Source: Bacilli bacterium (lineage in GTDB: Bacteria; Bacillota_I; Bacilli_A; RF39; UBA660). Taken from it: a stretch of DNA of 54,975 nucleotides. The notes below the pieces were generated by a model that saw nothing but the letters and a program-made list of their open reading frames with translations, was not told the DNA's origin and searched no databases. Where the stretch lies: assembly GCA_028691955.1 (NCBI GenBank), contig JAQUYH010000004.1, forward strand, positions 1-54,975. Direction: 5' to 3'. Position numbers and translations under genes: made by a program. Of the stretch, positions 11,863-15,854 are shown piece by piece; the first letter of the stretch is position 1, and the number at the start of each line of letters is the position of its first letter.

Positions 11863-13518
11863 ATGAAAAAAGGATTTACTTTAATTGAACTACTAGCAGT
11901 AATAGTAATATTAGCAATAATAGCAGTTATTTCAACACCAATAATAATAGGAGTTATTGATAATGCAAAGAGGTCATCTTATTTAGATAGTGCCCATGGA
12001 ATACTAGATGCAGCAAATAAGATGATTATGAGTGCTGAATTAAATGGTACTTTAGCTAATAATTATCAAATAGATTTAACTACTAGTACATTAAACTATA
12101 GTGGGAAGAAACCAACTAGTGGAACACTTCTAATAGATAGAATACAGAATGTAAGTTTCACATTAAAGTATGATACATATTGTATAGAAAAGAAGTTTGA
12201 TGAAAGTGTACCAACTATTAAAGATAAAACAGATTGTACAATAGATAGTAGTGAAGTAACATCATCATTACTTTATAAAGAAAGAATATTAAATGGAACA
12301 GATCCAATAATAAGTGGAGATTTAATACCAGTAATAATATCAAGTGATGGAAGTGTAAAGAAGTCAAGCGTAAATGATAATTACTATTCTTATAGTGATA
12401 AAAAGTGGGCTAATGCTGTAATATTATTAGATAAGGGTATTAGTTATGCAGTAGGAGATACTATACCAGAAGCTAATATAGAATCATATTTTGTATGGAT
12501 ACCAAGATATAGATATCAACTATTTAATACAAGTAATACAGCAAGTACTGGTTATTTAAGTAAAGAACAAACAATCAATATCGTGTTTGAAAATAAGAAT
12601 ACTATAGCTTCAACTGGAACTATAGATGGAGCATGGTTAACGCATCCAGCATTCACCTCATTTAATAGTAATGGAATGTGGGTAGGAAAGTATGAAACAG
12701 GTTATAAAGGAGCCACTAGTACAGCAACAGCTCAAGTAGATAGCTCAGATTCGACAAAAGTAATAGTAAAACCAAATACATATAGTTGGAGAAGTATAAC
12801 AGTAAATAATGCTTATTTAGCAAGTTATAATTATAATCGAACATTAGACTCCCATATGATGAAGAATACTGAGTGGGGAGCAGTGGCTTATTTATCATAT
12901 AGTGCATATGGGATAAATGGAAATATTAGAATAAATAATAATTCAAGTTATTTAACAGGGTATGCTAAAACAGAAGAGCCAACATGTGGTTACACAAGTC
13001 CTATGTCAACATGTAATGCTTGGGGAACAGCATCAAATTTAACTCAGCCTTATAATACAGAAACAGGCTATTTAGCTTCAACTACGGGAAACATTAGCGG
13101 AGTTTATGATATGAGCGGTGGTGCTTGGGAGTTTGTAGCTGGTTTATTATTTAATGTCGATACACCATATTATGGAAGCTCTGGAATGTCGTCTTTACCA
13201 GCAAGCAAATACTATGATAAATATACAGTTAGTAATTATTCAGGTAGGCTATTAGGAGATGCGACGGGAGAGATGGGACCATTTGGAACATGGAGTTTTG
13301 CTGGTGTTGCTTATAGCGATGGAGTAACACCAACAAGTGGAAGTAGAACAATAAGTTCTTGGAATCAAGATGATGCATATTTTATTACTTCTGGCTATCC
13401 GTGGTTCGTCCGCGGCGGCAACTACTACTACGGTTCTGGCGCTGGTGTCTTCGTCTTCGGCAGCGGCGCTGGTGGCGTTGTCAGCAGCTTCTCGTTCCGC
13501 CTCGTTCTTGCGCCTTAG
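11863..13518 (+). CDS. Diversity-generating retroelement target: pilin-like surface protein with FGE/C-type-lectin-like domain
   Basis: The 551-residue protein starts with a prepilin-type leader (MKKG|FTLIELLAVIV, Glu at +5). After a linker (about 40-200) comes a formylglycine-generating-enzyme/sulfatase-modifying-factor-like domain, a variant of the C-type lectin fold used by many DGR targets: YFVWIPRYRYQLF at about 210, WVGKYETGYKG at about 270, NTEWGAVAYLSYSAYG at about 330 and GVYDMSGGAWEFVAG at about 412. The last 42 codons (510-551) are the variable repeat and end in FSFRLVLAP, directly before the TAG stop. The final 126 bp are 63% GC, far above the rest of the gene. It has its own promoter and an AAGAAGGA ribosome site. 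It likely displays a diversified ligand-binding face at the surface; the ligand is unknown. Confidence 0.92.
   Translation: MKKGFTLIELLAVIVILAIIAVISTPIIIGVIDNAKRSSYLDSAHGILDAANKMIMSAELNGTLANNYQIDLTTSTLNYSGKKPTSGTLLIDRIQNVSFTLKYDTYCIEKKFDESVPTIKDKTDCTIDSSEVTSSLLYKERILNGTDPIISGDLIPVIISSDGSVKKSSVNDNYYSYSDKKWANAVILLDKGISYAVGDTIPEANIESYFVWIPRYRYQLFNTSNTASTGYLSKEQTINIVFENKNTIASTGTIDGAWLTHPAFTSFNSNGMWVGKYETGYKGATSTATAQVDSSDSTKVIVKPNTYSWRSITVNNAYLASYNYNRTLDSHMMKNTEWGAVAYLSYSAYGINGNIRINNNSSYLTGYAKTEEPTCGYTSPMSTCNAWGTASNLTQPYNTETGYLASTTGNISGVYDMSGGAWEFVAGLLFNVDTPYYGSSGMSSLPASKYYDKYTVSNYSGRLLGDATGEMGPFGTWSFAGVAYSDGVTPTSGSRTISSWNQDDAYFITSGYPWFVRGGNYYYGSGAGVFVFGSGAGGVVSSFSFRLVLAP
13390..13515 (+). repeat. 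DGR variable repeat (VR)
   Basis: This 126-bp segment aligns without gaps to 13731-13856 (offset 341). All 23 mismatches are at positions where the template has A: 15 are G here, 8 are T, none is C. Nine template adenines are unchanged. The invariant tail TCGTTCCGCCTCGTTCTT, followed by one variable base and CGCCT, corresponds to the GC-rich initiation-of-mutagenic-homing region. At the protein level 16 residues differ from the template-encoded sequence, mostly Asn to Tyr, Gly, Val, Ser or Phe. Confidence 0.96.
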
Positions 13519-13534
13519 ATGACTTTAGTCATCT
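13517..13534 (+). other. Hairpin/cruciform immediately after the VR
   Basis: AGATGACT (13517-13524) and AGTCATCT (13527-13534) form a perfect inverted repeat (8 bp with a TT loop, or 7 bp with a 4-nt loop). It starts one base after the VR and includes part of the TAG stop codon. The template copy has no such hairpin downstream. In the Bordetella phage DGR, a hairpin/cruciform just downstream of the VR is needed for target recognition, so the same role is inferred here. Confidence 0.75.
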
Positions 13535-13540
13535 TGCCCT

Positions 13541-13647
13541 TTGCCCTTAAGAATAACAAAATAAGAATAATTACAATAAATGAGAATACAATATGATAAG
13601 GGCAATATCTTGCCGACTTTTGCCTTTGCGATTAGCAAAAGGCGGCA
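13541..13647 (+). other. Two hairpins between VR and template repeat
   Basis: TTGCCCTTA (13541-13549) can pair with TAAGGGCAA (13597-13605). A second hairpin pairs TGCCG-A-CTTTTGC (13611-13623) with GCAAAAG-G-CGGCA (13635-13647), with one A/G mismatch and an 11-nt loop. Neither is followed by a T tract, so they are poor intrinsic terminators. They may stabilise the 3' end of the target mRNA or belong to the retroelement RNA; the sequence does not decide. Confidence 0.5.
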
Positions 13648-13730
13648 GGGTAGATTAAAAAATATGGCATTATATAATATATAGTGTAGGGATTAAATCG
13701 ATTTTGACTTTTCTCTTTTTGCTCTTTAGC

Positions 13731-13856
13731 TCAAGCAATCCGTGGTTCATCCGCGGCGGCAACTACAACAACGGTTCTAACACTGGTGTCTTCAACTTCA
13801 ACAACAACACTGGTGGCGTTAACAGCAACAACTCGTTCCGCCTCGTTCTTACGCCT
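13731..13856 (+). repeat. DGR template repeat (TR)
   Basis: This 126-bp template has 32 adenines, mostly in AAC codons when read in the target frame (encoding N-Y-N-N-G-S-N-T and F-N-F-N-N-N-T). AAC codons cannot mutate to a stop by changes at A, which is typical of DGR templates. It is about 51% GC in an AT-rich genome. The similarity to the VR ends abruptly on both sides. A short reading frame crosses it (13704-13898) but is not a gene. Confidence 0.95.
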
Positions 13857-14020
13857 AGACTACTATATAAAAACAAAAGTTTCATTGAAATATTGTAATT
13901 CAAGGATTACAATTAGGATGCTTATTGTAGAGATTTAATTCCTTTTATACGAAAGTATAAAAAACACATAAATTATTAATATATAGTTAGTAGCAAAATG
14001 GCGAAAGGTATATATTAAGG

Positions 14021-14058
14021 AAAGTAGTACAAAAATATTATGTACTACTTTTTTATTT
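14021..14058 (+). terminator. Terminator between template RNA and accessory genes
   Basis: AAAGTAGTAC (14021-14030) pairs with GTACTACTTT (14042-14051) and is followed by TTTATTTT. It would end the template RNA 38 bp before the accessory operon, or act as an attenuator of read-through into it. Confidence 0.8.
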
Positions 14059-14096: not shown

Positions 14097-14468
14097 ATGA
14101 GTAAAATATATGATAAATATAAAGAATTAAAAAAGAAAGATAGTAACAAACTATACTTAATAAAATGTGGTAAATTCTATATCTTTGTTGATAAAGACTG
14201 TGACTATATTAATAATTACATTGTTTTAAAGAAAGTATTGTTAACAAAAGATGTCTACAAATGTGGTTTCCCAGTTGAAAAGGTAGAAGATTATTTAAAA
14301 GTGTTTAAAAATCAAGGCATAGATATTGAAGTTGTAGCTAACTTAGATTTAGTAGAAAAAAATAAAACAGACATTAATCAATACATAAAAAATATTGATA
14401 TAGATAATTTAACACCCAAACAAGCTTTAGATATACTATATGAAATAAGGGGTATTGTAAATGAATGA
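14097..14468 (+). CDS. Stand-alone MutS domain I-like protein, DGR accessory (MSL-type)
   Basis: The 123-residue protein resembles only the mismatch-recognition domain I of MutS: YKELKKKDSNKLYLIKCGKFYIF (about 8-30) aligns with the MutS segment leading into GDFYELF, and KCGFPVEKVEDYLKVFKNQG (about 55-74) with the MutS [21 protein letters not shown] region. The Phe of the Phe-X-Glu wedge is kept (F27) but the Glu is replaced by Ile29. The tail IDNLTPKQALDILYEIRGIV resembles the last helix of MutS, although no ATPase or clamp domain exists between them. MutS-like accessory genes have been reported next to some DGRs; a role in cDNA or heteroduplex handling is inferred. AAGGAG ribosome site; overlaps the Avd gene by 8 bp. 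Confidence 0.75.
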   Translation: MSKIYDKYKELKKKDSNKLYLIKCGKFYIFVDKDCDYINNYIVLKKVLLTKDVYKCGFPVEKVEDYLKVFKNQGIDIEVVANLDLVEKNKTDINQYIKNIDIDNLTPKQALDILYEIRGIVNE

Positions 14469-14817
14469 AGTAGAAGAGCTAATAATTTATAAACAATATG
14501 TTGAATTAATATGTTATACAGAATTAGTTACTGACAAATTTCCTAAAAAAGAAAAGCTTGCTTTAGTTTCAACTATAAAATCTAATACTTATGAAGGCTT
14601 AAAAAATATAATAAAAGCTTATAAAAAATATGATAAAATTGATAAATTAAATGCACTAACTAACTTAGATATTGATATGAAAATGTTAAAGGTTATGATT
14701 AGACTATCTTATAAAAATAAATATATTTCAATTAAAAATTATACTGCTTGGAGTAAGAAAATATCTAACATTTGTAATATGCTGGGAGGCTGGATTAAGT
14801 CATGTCAAAAACAATAA
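14461..14817 (+). CDS. avd: DGR accessory variability protein (Avd-like)
   Basis: The 118-residue, helical, basic protein fits the Avd/S23 four-helix-bundle family: KFPKKEKLALVSTIKSNTYEGL in the first half, LKVMIRLSYKNKYISIKNY in the middle and ISNICNMLGGWIKS at the end. The NMLGGWIK tail is characteristic. Avd forms a pentameric barrel that binds the reverse transcriptase and template RNA and is essential for mutagenic homing. The start overlaps the MutS-like gene and the end overlaps the reverse transcriptase gene by 16 bp, so all three are cotranslated. Confidence 0.88.
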   Translation: MNEVEELIIYKQYVELICYTELVTDKFPKKEKLALVSTIKSNTYEGLKNIIKAYKKYDKIDKLNALTNLDIDMKMLKVMIRLSYKNKYISIKNYTAWSKKISNICNMLGGWIKSCQKQ

Positions 14818-15854
14818 GGAATATATTTGATTCAAAATTAACTTTTGAGAATTTAATTAAGGCTCATTACTTAACAAGTAAAAGAAAAAGGTGCAATAAG
14901 TATGTAATGGTATTTGAAATTGATTTAGAAACTAATATAATGAGTTTATATAAGGACCTTAAAAATAAAACCTACAAATTAGGTAGATATAAAGAATTTA
15001 TAGTAACAGAACCTAAAGAAAGACTAATCAAAGCCCTACCTTATAGAGATAGAATAGTTCAGAGTTGGTATATAGAAGAATTTATCAAACCATTTATAGT
15101 AAAAAGATTTGTAAACGATAGTTATGCTTGCATAGAAAATAAAGGTACACATCAGGCGGTAAATAATCTTCAAAAATATATGATAAAAATGAACAGAAAA
15201 TATAGTAATTATTATGTATTAAAATGTGATATTAGAGGATTTTTCTATAATATAGATAAAAAAGTTTTGTTAAATATTTTAAAAAAATACATAAGCGATA
15301 AAAAGCTATTAGATTTTACCTTAATACTATTAGGCGATTTGAGTGAAATAGGCATTCCTATAGGAAACTATACAAGTCAGTTTTTTGCTAATATATATTT
15401 AAATGAATTAGATCATTATATAAAAGATACTTTAAATGTAAAATATTATTTAAGATACATGGATGACTTTATTTTATTAGTTGATACAAAAGAAAAAGCT
15501 AAAGAATTATTGTTAAAAATAAATATGTTTGTAAATACTATCTTACATTTAAAGTTAAATAAAAAAACCTGCTATTATCCTAAGAGTAAAGGCGTTGATT
15601 TTTGTGGATATAAAATATTTGAAACACACAAATTACTTAGAAAAAGGTGTGTTAAAAAAATTAAAAAAGTAATTAAAACAGCTAATAATGATTATATATA
15701 TAAACAGTTAGACACAAAAAAAATAGAGTCTAAATTAAACTCTTTTAAGGCTCATTCTAAACATGCTAATAGTTATAATATAAGAGATACCATATATAAT
15801 GAAATACTCTTTAGAGAAGAGCTTTTTTCTTGTTTAAATAAATTTTTATTATAG
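14802..15854 (+). CDS. DGR reverse transcriptase
   Basis: This 350-residue reverse transcriptase has the core motifs in order: KALPYRDRIVQSWY (78-90), KCDIRGFFYNID with catalytic Asp143, IPIGNYTSQFFANIYL (185-200), RYMDDF with Asp221/Asp222, the lysine-rich KKTCYYPKSKG (254-264), and GVDFCGY (264-270). DGR enzymes are recognised by [I/V/L]GNxxSQ in place of the QGxxxSP of retrons and group II introns, and this one has IGNYTSQ. All catalytic residues are intact, so it should be active. No maturase or endonuclease domain is present. It makes adenine-mutagenised cDNA from the template RNA. The gene is convergent with uvsE, only 3 bp between the coding ends. Confidence 0.96.
   Translation: MSKTIRNIFDSKLTFENLIKAHYLTSKRKRCNKYVMVFEIDLETNIMSLYKDLKNKTYKLGRYKEFIVTEPKERLIKALPYRDRIVQSWYIEEFIKPFIVKRFVNDSYACIENKGTHQAVNNLQKYMIKMNRKYSNYYVLKCDIRGFFYNIDKKVLLNILKKYISDKKLLDFTLILLGDLSEIGIPIGNYTSQFFANIYLNELDHYIKDTLNVKYYLRYMDDFILLVDTKEKAKELLLKINMFVNTILHLKLNKKTCYYPKSKGVDFCGYKIFETHKLLRKRCVKKIKKVIKTANNDYIYKQLDTKKIESKLNSFKAHSKHANSYNIRDTIYNEILFREELFSCLNKFLL

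Follow-up and report, generated by a model that had tools for sequence, protein, structure and literature searches.

A diversity-generating retroelement (DGR) makes error-prone copies of a template RNA and in this way varies a surface protein. In the prototype DGR, that of the Bordetella phage BPP-1, the spacer recruits RT-Avd and primes the cDNA, an upstream motif ends the cDNA (PMC12875486), and hairpins after the VR guide retrohoming (PMC3240598). In the cyanobacterial DGRs of Trichodesmium and Nostoc punctiforme the TR-RNA is reported to be very highly expressed, with RT and Avd low (PMC12691664, PMC8867640). The high level of TR-RNA in relation to RT and Avd (PMC12691664), and the 35-fold gain in activity when the TR-RNA of BPP-1 is placed under a strong promoter of its own (PMC12875486), agree with a need for template RNA in excess.

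The window, by which we mean the whole analysed stretch of 54,975 nt from a Bacilli bacterium (contig JAQUYH010000004.1), contains a complete cellular DGR in the order target gene with VR, TR, MSL, Avd and RT. The part from 13858 to 14058 is, we are quite convinced, the 3' scaffold and the 3' end of the template RNA of this DGR. As in the template RNA of BPP-1 (avd-TR-Sp), upstream and downstream segments flank the TR, and the RT is homologous over its full length to the chain in PDB entry 8ub7. We take this chain to be bRT, and 8ub7 and its sister entries to be the BPP-1 bRT-Avd-RNA structures. BPP-1 differs in having the order avd-TR-brt, in that its upstream helix strand lies within the avd coding sequence, and in being GC-rich, with an annotated cassette without MSL. 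The cyanobacterial TR-RNAs belong to another phylum and are compared here in expression, their high TR-RNA and low RT and Avd matching what the terminator model set out below would predict for the window locus.

The DGR and its neighbourhood

The following features, all on the forward strand, make up the coding part of the locus and its repeats.

11863-13518, +, variable protein, the DGR target gene (open reading frame; N_methyl and IV_pilin_GFxxxE matches)
13385-13515, +, VR, 81% identity to the TR over 131 nt
13518-13533, +, hairpin GATGAC-TTTA-GTCATC directly after the VR (sequence, fold)
13726-13856, +, TR (repeat comparison, adenine-biased mismatches against the VR)
14097-14468, +, MSL, a MutS domain I-like accessory protein (Pfam MutS_I)
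14461-14817, +, Avd (bAvd; NF033474 DivGenRetAVD, 80.1 bits at a cut-off of 80)
14802-15854, +, DGR reverse transcriptase (RVT_1; IGNYTSQ and YMDD)

The variable protein has a pilin-like N-terminus and carries the VR at the 3' end of its gene. In the aligned core of the TR and VR all mismatches (23/23) fall at TR adenines, as they should in a DGR. The accessory proteins of a DGR are represented by Avd, which reaches the cut-off of NF033474 DivGenRetAVD, and by the MutS_I protein, and the RT is of the DGR type, with 8ub7, a reverse transcriptase, as its best PDB match (E 2.1e-51, residues 1-327). As the initial annotation had proposed, the RNA is part of a DGR that includes Avd and RT.

MSL precedes Avd, and in most relatives with everything on the same strand the MSL gene adjoins the template RNA. 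The hairpin at 13518-13533 has a loop of 4 nt and adjoins the VR stop region, the place of the BPP-1 target-site hairpin or cruciform (PMC3240598); its TTTA loop departs from GRNA, the reported consensus of such loops in phage DGRs (PMC3240598). Between VR and TR, many relatives (L042, L064, L039, L061, L058 and others) have a long, GC-rich and near-perfect hairpin with a T run in its loop, for example acgccccgcccgcttttttttcacgggcggggcg; a GC-rich hairpin also occurs in the window, at about 13608-13651, but it is of a different type.

The fold around the TR

Two perfect 8-bp hairpins had been noted in the spacer, and both are exact: ATTGTAAT/ATTACAAT with a 6-nt loop at 13892-13913, and TTTTATAC-GAAA-GTATAAAA at 13943-13962. 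Of 2000 dinucleotide shuffles, 0.3% contain two or more hairpins of this kind, as do 4 of the 1371 equally long windows examined along the 55 kb. The 204-nt region has a folding z of -3.8, a stability that none of 200 shuffles equals, and for a longer stretch starting at 13655 the z is -4.5. When relatives are taken into account, the hairpins become part of a larger structure, with the following elements.

13667-13687, +, leader hairpin PL (present in 64% of 28 loci, 14% when shuffled; fold)
13689-13699, +, P0 5' strand GGGATTAAATC, pairs with 13932-13942 (own-versus-cross control)
13860-13869, +, P1 5' strand, pairs with 13921-13930 (7 of 10 pairs with compensatory change)
13892-13913, +, P2 hairpin with conserved UUYAMGGA loop (alignment, covariation, RNAalifold)
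13921-13930, +, P1 3' strand (covariation)
13932-13942, +, P0 3' strand GATTTAATTCC, in the conserved join after P1 (own-versus-cross control)
13943-13962, +, P3 hairpin, GAAA-capped in the window (covarying stem, variable loop)
13976-14018, +, P4 stem with conserved AGUAGYAAAAUGRYGAAA interior (alignment, covariation, RNAalifold)
14021-14058, +, intrinsic terminator ending the template RNA (sequence, fold; position conserved)

TR/VR pairs in relatives were found through their adenine-biased mismatches, and the TR 3' flanks of 20 related DGR loci were aligned by sequence. Covariation, which the initial annotation had set as a test of the stems, is present in 27 of the 32 pairs of P1-P4 as compensatory changes across the 20 loci, and none of 500 shuffles reaches the whole-structure score. 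P1 is the closing helix and begins 3 nt past the TR end, and in P4 positions 13976-13985 pair with 14009-14018. The paired cells amount to 84%, against 59.5% in shuffled alignments and 33-47% with slid partners, a control that is biased in favour of P1-P4 since this alignment had itself guided the choice of their columns. RNAalifold, to which no structure was supplied and whose support is thus independent of the choice of columns, predicts P2, P3 and P4 with 23 pairs, 20 of which have compensatory change. A covariance model from related loci, a check that had been suggested, was built and recovers loci left out of its construction, among them L065 (111 bits), L084 (110) and L056 (108). Sequence is conserved in the P2 loop, in the P4 interior and in the join that follows P1.

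The GNRA cap noted on the second hairpin is a different matter: the GAAA loop is there in the window, but among the 20 loci it occurs in one only. A conserved tertiary contact through this tetraloop was considered and ruled out, as P3 loops vary freely. That the hairpins have arisen by chance in AT-rich sequence, the region being about 77% A+T (GC 0.23), is refuted by the covariation, with the cross-locus and shuffle controls speaking against it as well, and we regard this explanation as practically negligible. Dozens of relatives among gut bacteria share this conserved fold. Searches with R1 across the class and the phylum, run with strict filters at which weak matches are lost, gave matches only in the bacterial family of the window.

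The fold also reaches back over the TR. In the window GGGAUUAAAUC at 13689-13699 pairs with GAUUUAAUUCC at 13932-13942, a helix, P0, which encloses the TR and has a predicted pairing probability of 0.98. A P0 score of at least 18 is found in 27 of 34 loci (79%), where cross-locus pairings give 1% and shuffles 2%, and the helix is kept with sequences that differ between loci (GGGCUUGGGCU/AGCUCAAGUCC, GGUCAUAGGUU/AAACUUAUGACC, GGGAUAAGGUU/AACCUUAUUCC). The 5' strand was selected by best complementarity, a bias that is addressed by the cross-locus control, which makes the same choice; own-versus-cross pairing was preferred to column counts because a MAFFT alignment of the whole RNA, TR included, put the P0 5' strand in the wrong place for about eight loci. 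Six of the 34 loci gave no P0, in some cases probably because the TR start was misplaced. PL, with weaker support than P0, stops 1 nt short of the P0 5' strand in many loci. P1, P4 and P0, none of which the initial annotation mentioned, are by this comparative evidence members of the same larger conserved fold, and the predicted template RNA spans at least 13667 to about 14058.

Complementarity and prediction thus have upstream and spacer segments pairing around the TR, as in a DGR RNA of the BPP-1 type. The predicted fold of BPP-1 contains a 15-bp helix around its TR (avd -71 to -57 with Sp 66-80, probability about 0.79), so on predicted fold alone BPP-1 can form a helix equivalent to P0. A TR-spacer duplex for initiation or priming was also looked for among the loci, and none is conserved (best own pairing 12.5 against 12.9 across loci).

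Inverted repeats may also act as DNA, in cruciforms or as recombination sites, and the hairpin directly after the VR, of the sort that guides retrohoming in BPP-1 (PMC3240598), lends the idea some support. At pair 3 of P0, however, 18 of 28 loci have G.U, a mismatch if the helix were DNA, so RNA is the better fit. G.U pairs in P2, P3 and P4, the conserved loops and single-stranded joins, and the U-tract terminator also fit RNA, and we think a role as DNA is very improbable.

Relation to the RT-14 family

The spacer matches a catalogued RNA family, Rfam RF02921 (RT-14).

13880-14019, +, match to RT-14 over model positions 1-144 of 144, 46.7 bits

The score is 1.4 bits under the gathering cut-off of 48.1 (E 2.6e-5, 501 bases searched); the match is full-length, with the consensus helices, and lies near an RT gene. 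Relatives of the same aligned RNA exceed the cut-off (e.g. L083 with 74.1 and L076 with 63.8 bits), and in L083, L076, L086 and L061 the RT-14 part begins at most 25 nt from the TR 3' end. In the window RNA and in RT-14 the helices follow one another in the same way, and both have the conserved AGUAG..GCGAA part, whereas the model as matched covers none of the TR, the P0 5' strand, the leader hairpin or the terminator. RT-14 matches occur in 19 of 291 genomes of the family of the window, and 20 of the 22 places have a DGR RT, an Avd or a TR/VR pair within short flanks.

From the adjacency to the TR in relatives, the covariance model, the survey of strands and the DGR neighbourhood, RT-14 appears to be the scaffold of DGR template RNAs, and a DGR template RNA with an RT-14-like 3' module is a well-supported reading of the window sequence. 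RT-14 was reportedly first described by Weinberg in 2017; a literature search, with that original description outside it, found no paper calling RT-14 a DGR template-RNA scaffold.

Two further arrangements were seen. Besides the DGR in the window, its genome carries a second one (L111, G000:C26:57000-66000) in the order VP-MSL-Avd-RT-TR-RNA. There an RT-14-like RNA lies directly downstream of RT and is followed by a hairpin with a T run, and a candidate P0 5' strand overlaps the RT stop region. In L079 (7147-7897) the template-RNA scaffold occurs twice, both times on the strand opposite RT.

Transcript boundaries and proposed mechanism

The terminator that had been placed at 14021-14058 is present, with the stem AAAGTAGTAC (14021-14030) and GTACTACTTT (14042-14051) followed by TTTATTTT, and is conserved in most relatives. 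A simple consensus scan, limited to loops of 3-8 nt, missed it because of its 11-nt loop. Terminator-like hairpins follow the RNA in 63% of 49 RNAs or loci, against 1.5% of control windows. In L074, L083, L076 and L031 no terminator was found, and in L074 and L083 an ATG stands almost at the P4 end, so a discrete 3' end is not universal. The distance from the terminator hairpin to the next start codon has a median of 29 nt in 23 same-strand loci and is 43 nt in the window, which leaves little room for a promoter. Consensus promoters upstream of the TR, or between the terminator and MSL, were looked for and not found above chance level (upstream of the TR 26 found, with 29.3 expected over the region).

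The initial annotation held that the template RNA is discrete and separate from the MSL-Avd-RT mRNA. Its discrete 3' end is borne out by the conserved terminator, but a transcription unit of its own is not, with so little room for a promoter after the terminator in this arrangement. The simplest reading is rather partial termination, with read-through, or else a promoter within the RNA, as the probable source of the MSL-Avd-RT mRNA; where all lie on one strand, this is more likely than fully separate transcription. There are 10 loci in which the RNA is convergent, on the strand opposite RT, and is therefore made apart from the RT mRNA, and in L053/L054 it is inverted relative to the VR; taken together, these arrangements mean that the RNA can work in trans. 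The initial annotation thus picked out true features and the correct system, though it captured just half of the RNA and made too much of its separation from the RT mRNA.

The same arrangements bear on two other explanations. One concerns only the transcript and is compatible with a scaffold function: the RNA could be the processed or terminated 3' end of the mRNA of the pilin-like variable protein, with the terminator ending that operon. The variable protein gene, TR and scaffold are collinear, the consensus scan found no terminator between 13518 and 13726, no promoter above chance was seen upstream of the TR, and most relatives have the VR on the strand of the TR and upstream of it. In L053/L054, however, the inversion of TR and VR puts the RNA outside the transcript of the variable protein, and in L076 the RT gene sits between VR and TR, so we are inclined to doubt this origin while giving it considerable weight. 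The other explanation sees the structure as an attenuator or riboswitch-like leader of the MSL-Avd-RT operon and not as part of the template RNA. The terminator hairpin stands so close before the start codon that it probably affects expression of the operon too, but in most of the 10 opposite-strand loci the same RNA has its terminator, and in the second DGR of the genome the RT-14-like RNA comes after RT, so regulation of a downstream operon cannot be the general role. P0, by pairing with sequence upstream of the TR, also ties the RNA to the TR, and a leader of this kind strikes us as unlikely.

As the template RNA of a DGR, the structure would work as follows. P0 would join the sequence upstream of the TR to the spacer and so close the TR into a loop, the TR 3' end lying next to the P1/P2 domain, 3' of which come P3, P4 and the terminator. 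By analogy with BPP-1, the scaffold would bind RT-Avd, hold the 3' end of the TR at the RT and set up initiation there, and P0 would block extension past the 5' end of the TR. Most transcripts would stop at 14058 and give abundant template RNA; a minority would read through into MSL-Avd-RT, unless a promoter internal to the RNA serves the operon. With slightly more doubt than belief, we suggest that the terminator is a deliberately leaky stop, fixing the ratio of abundant template RNA to scarce RT from one promoter, and that a covarying long-range helix which closes off the TR may prove to be general among DGR RNAs, all the way from Bordetella phage to gut Bacilli.

RT-14, so far a catalogued RNA family, would gain a concrete job as the scaffold of DGR template RNAs, and the cellular DGRs of gut bacteria, distant from the prototype in Bordetella phage, would have a fold tested by covariation that includes a helix enclosing the TR. 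The arrangement makes it testable how template RNA may be kept plentiful while the mutagenic enzyme stays scarce.
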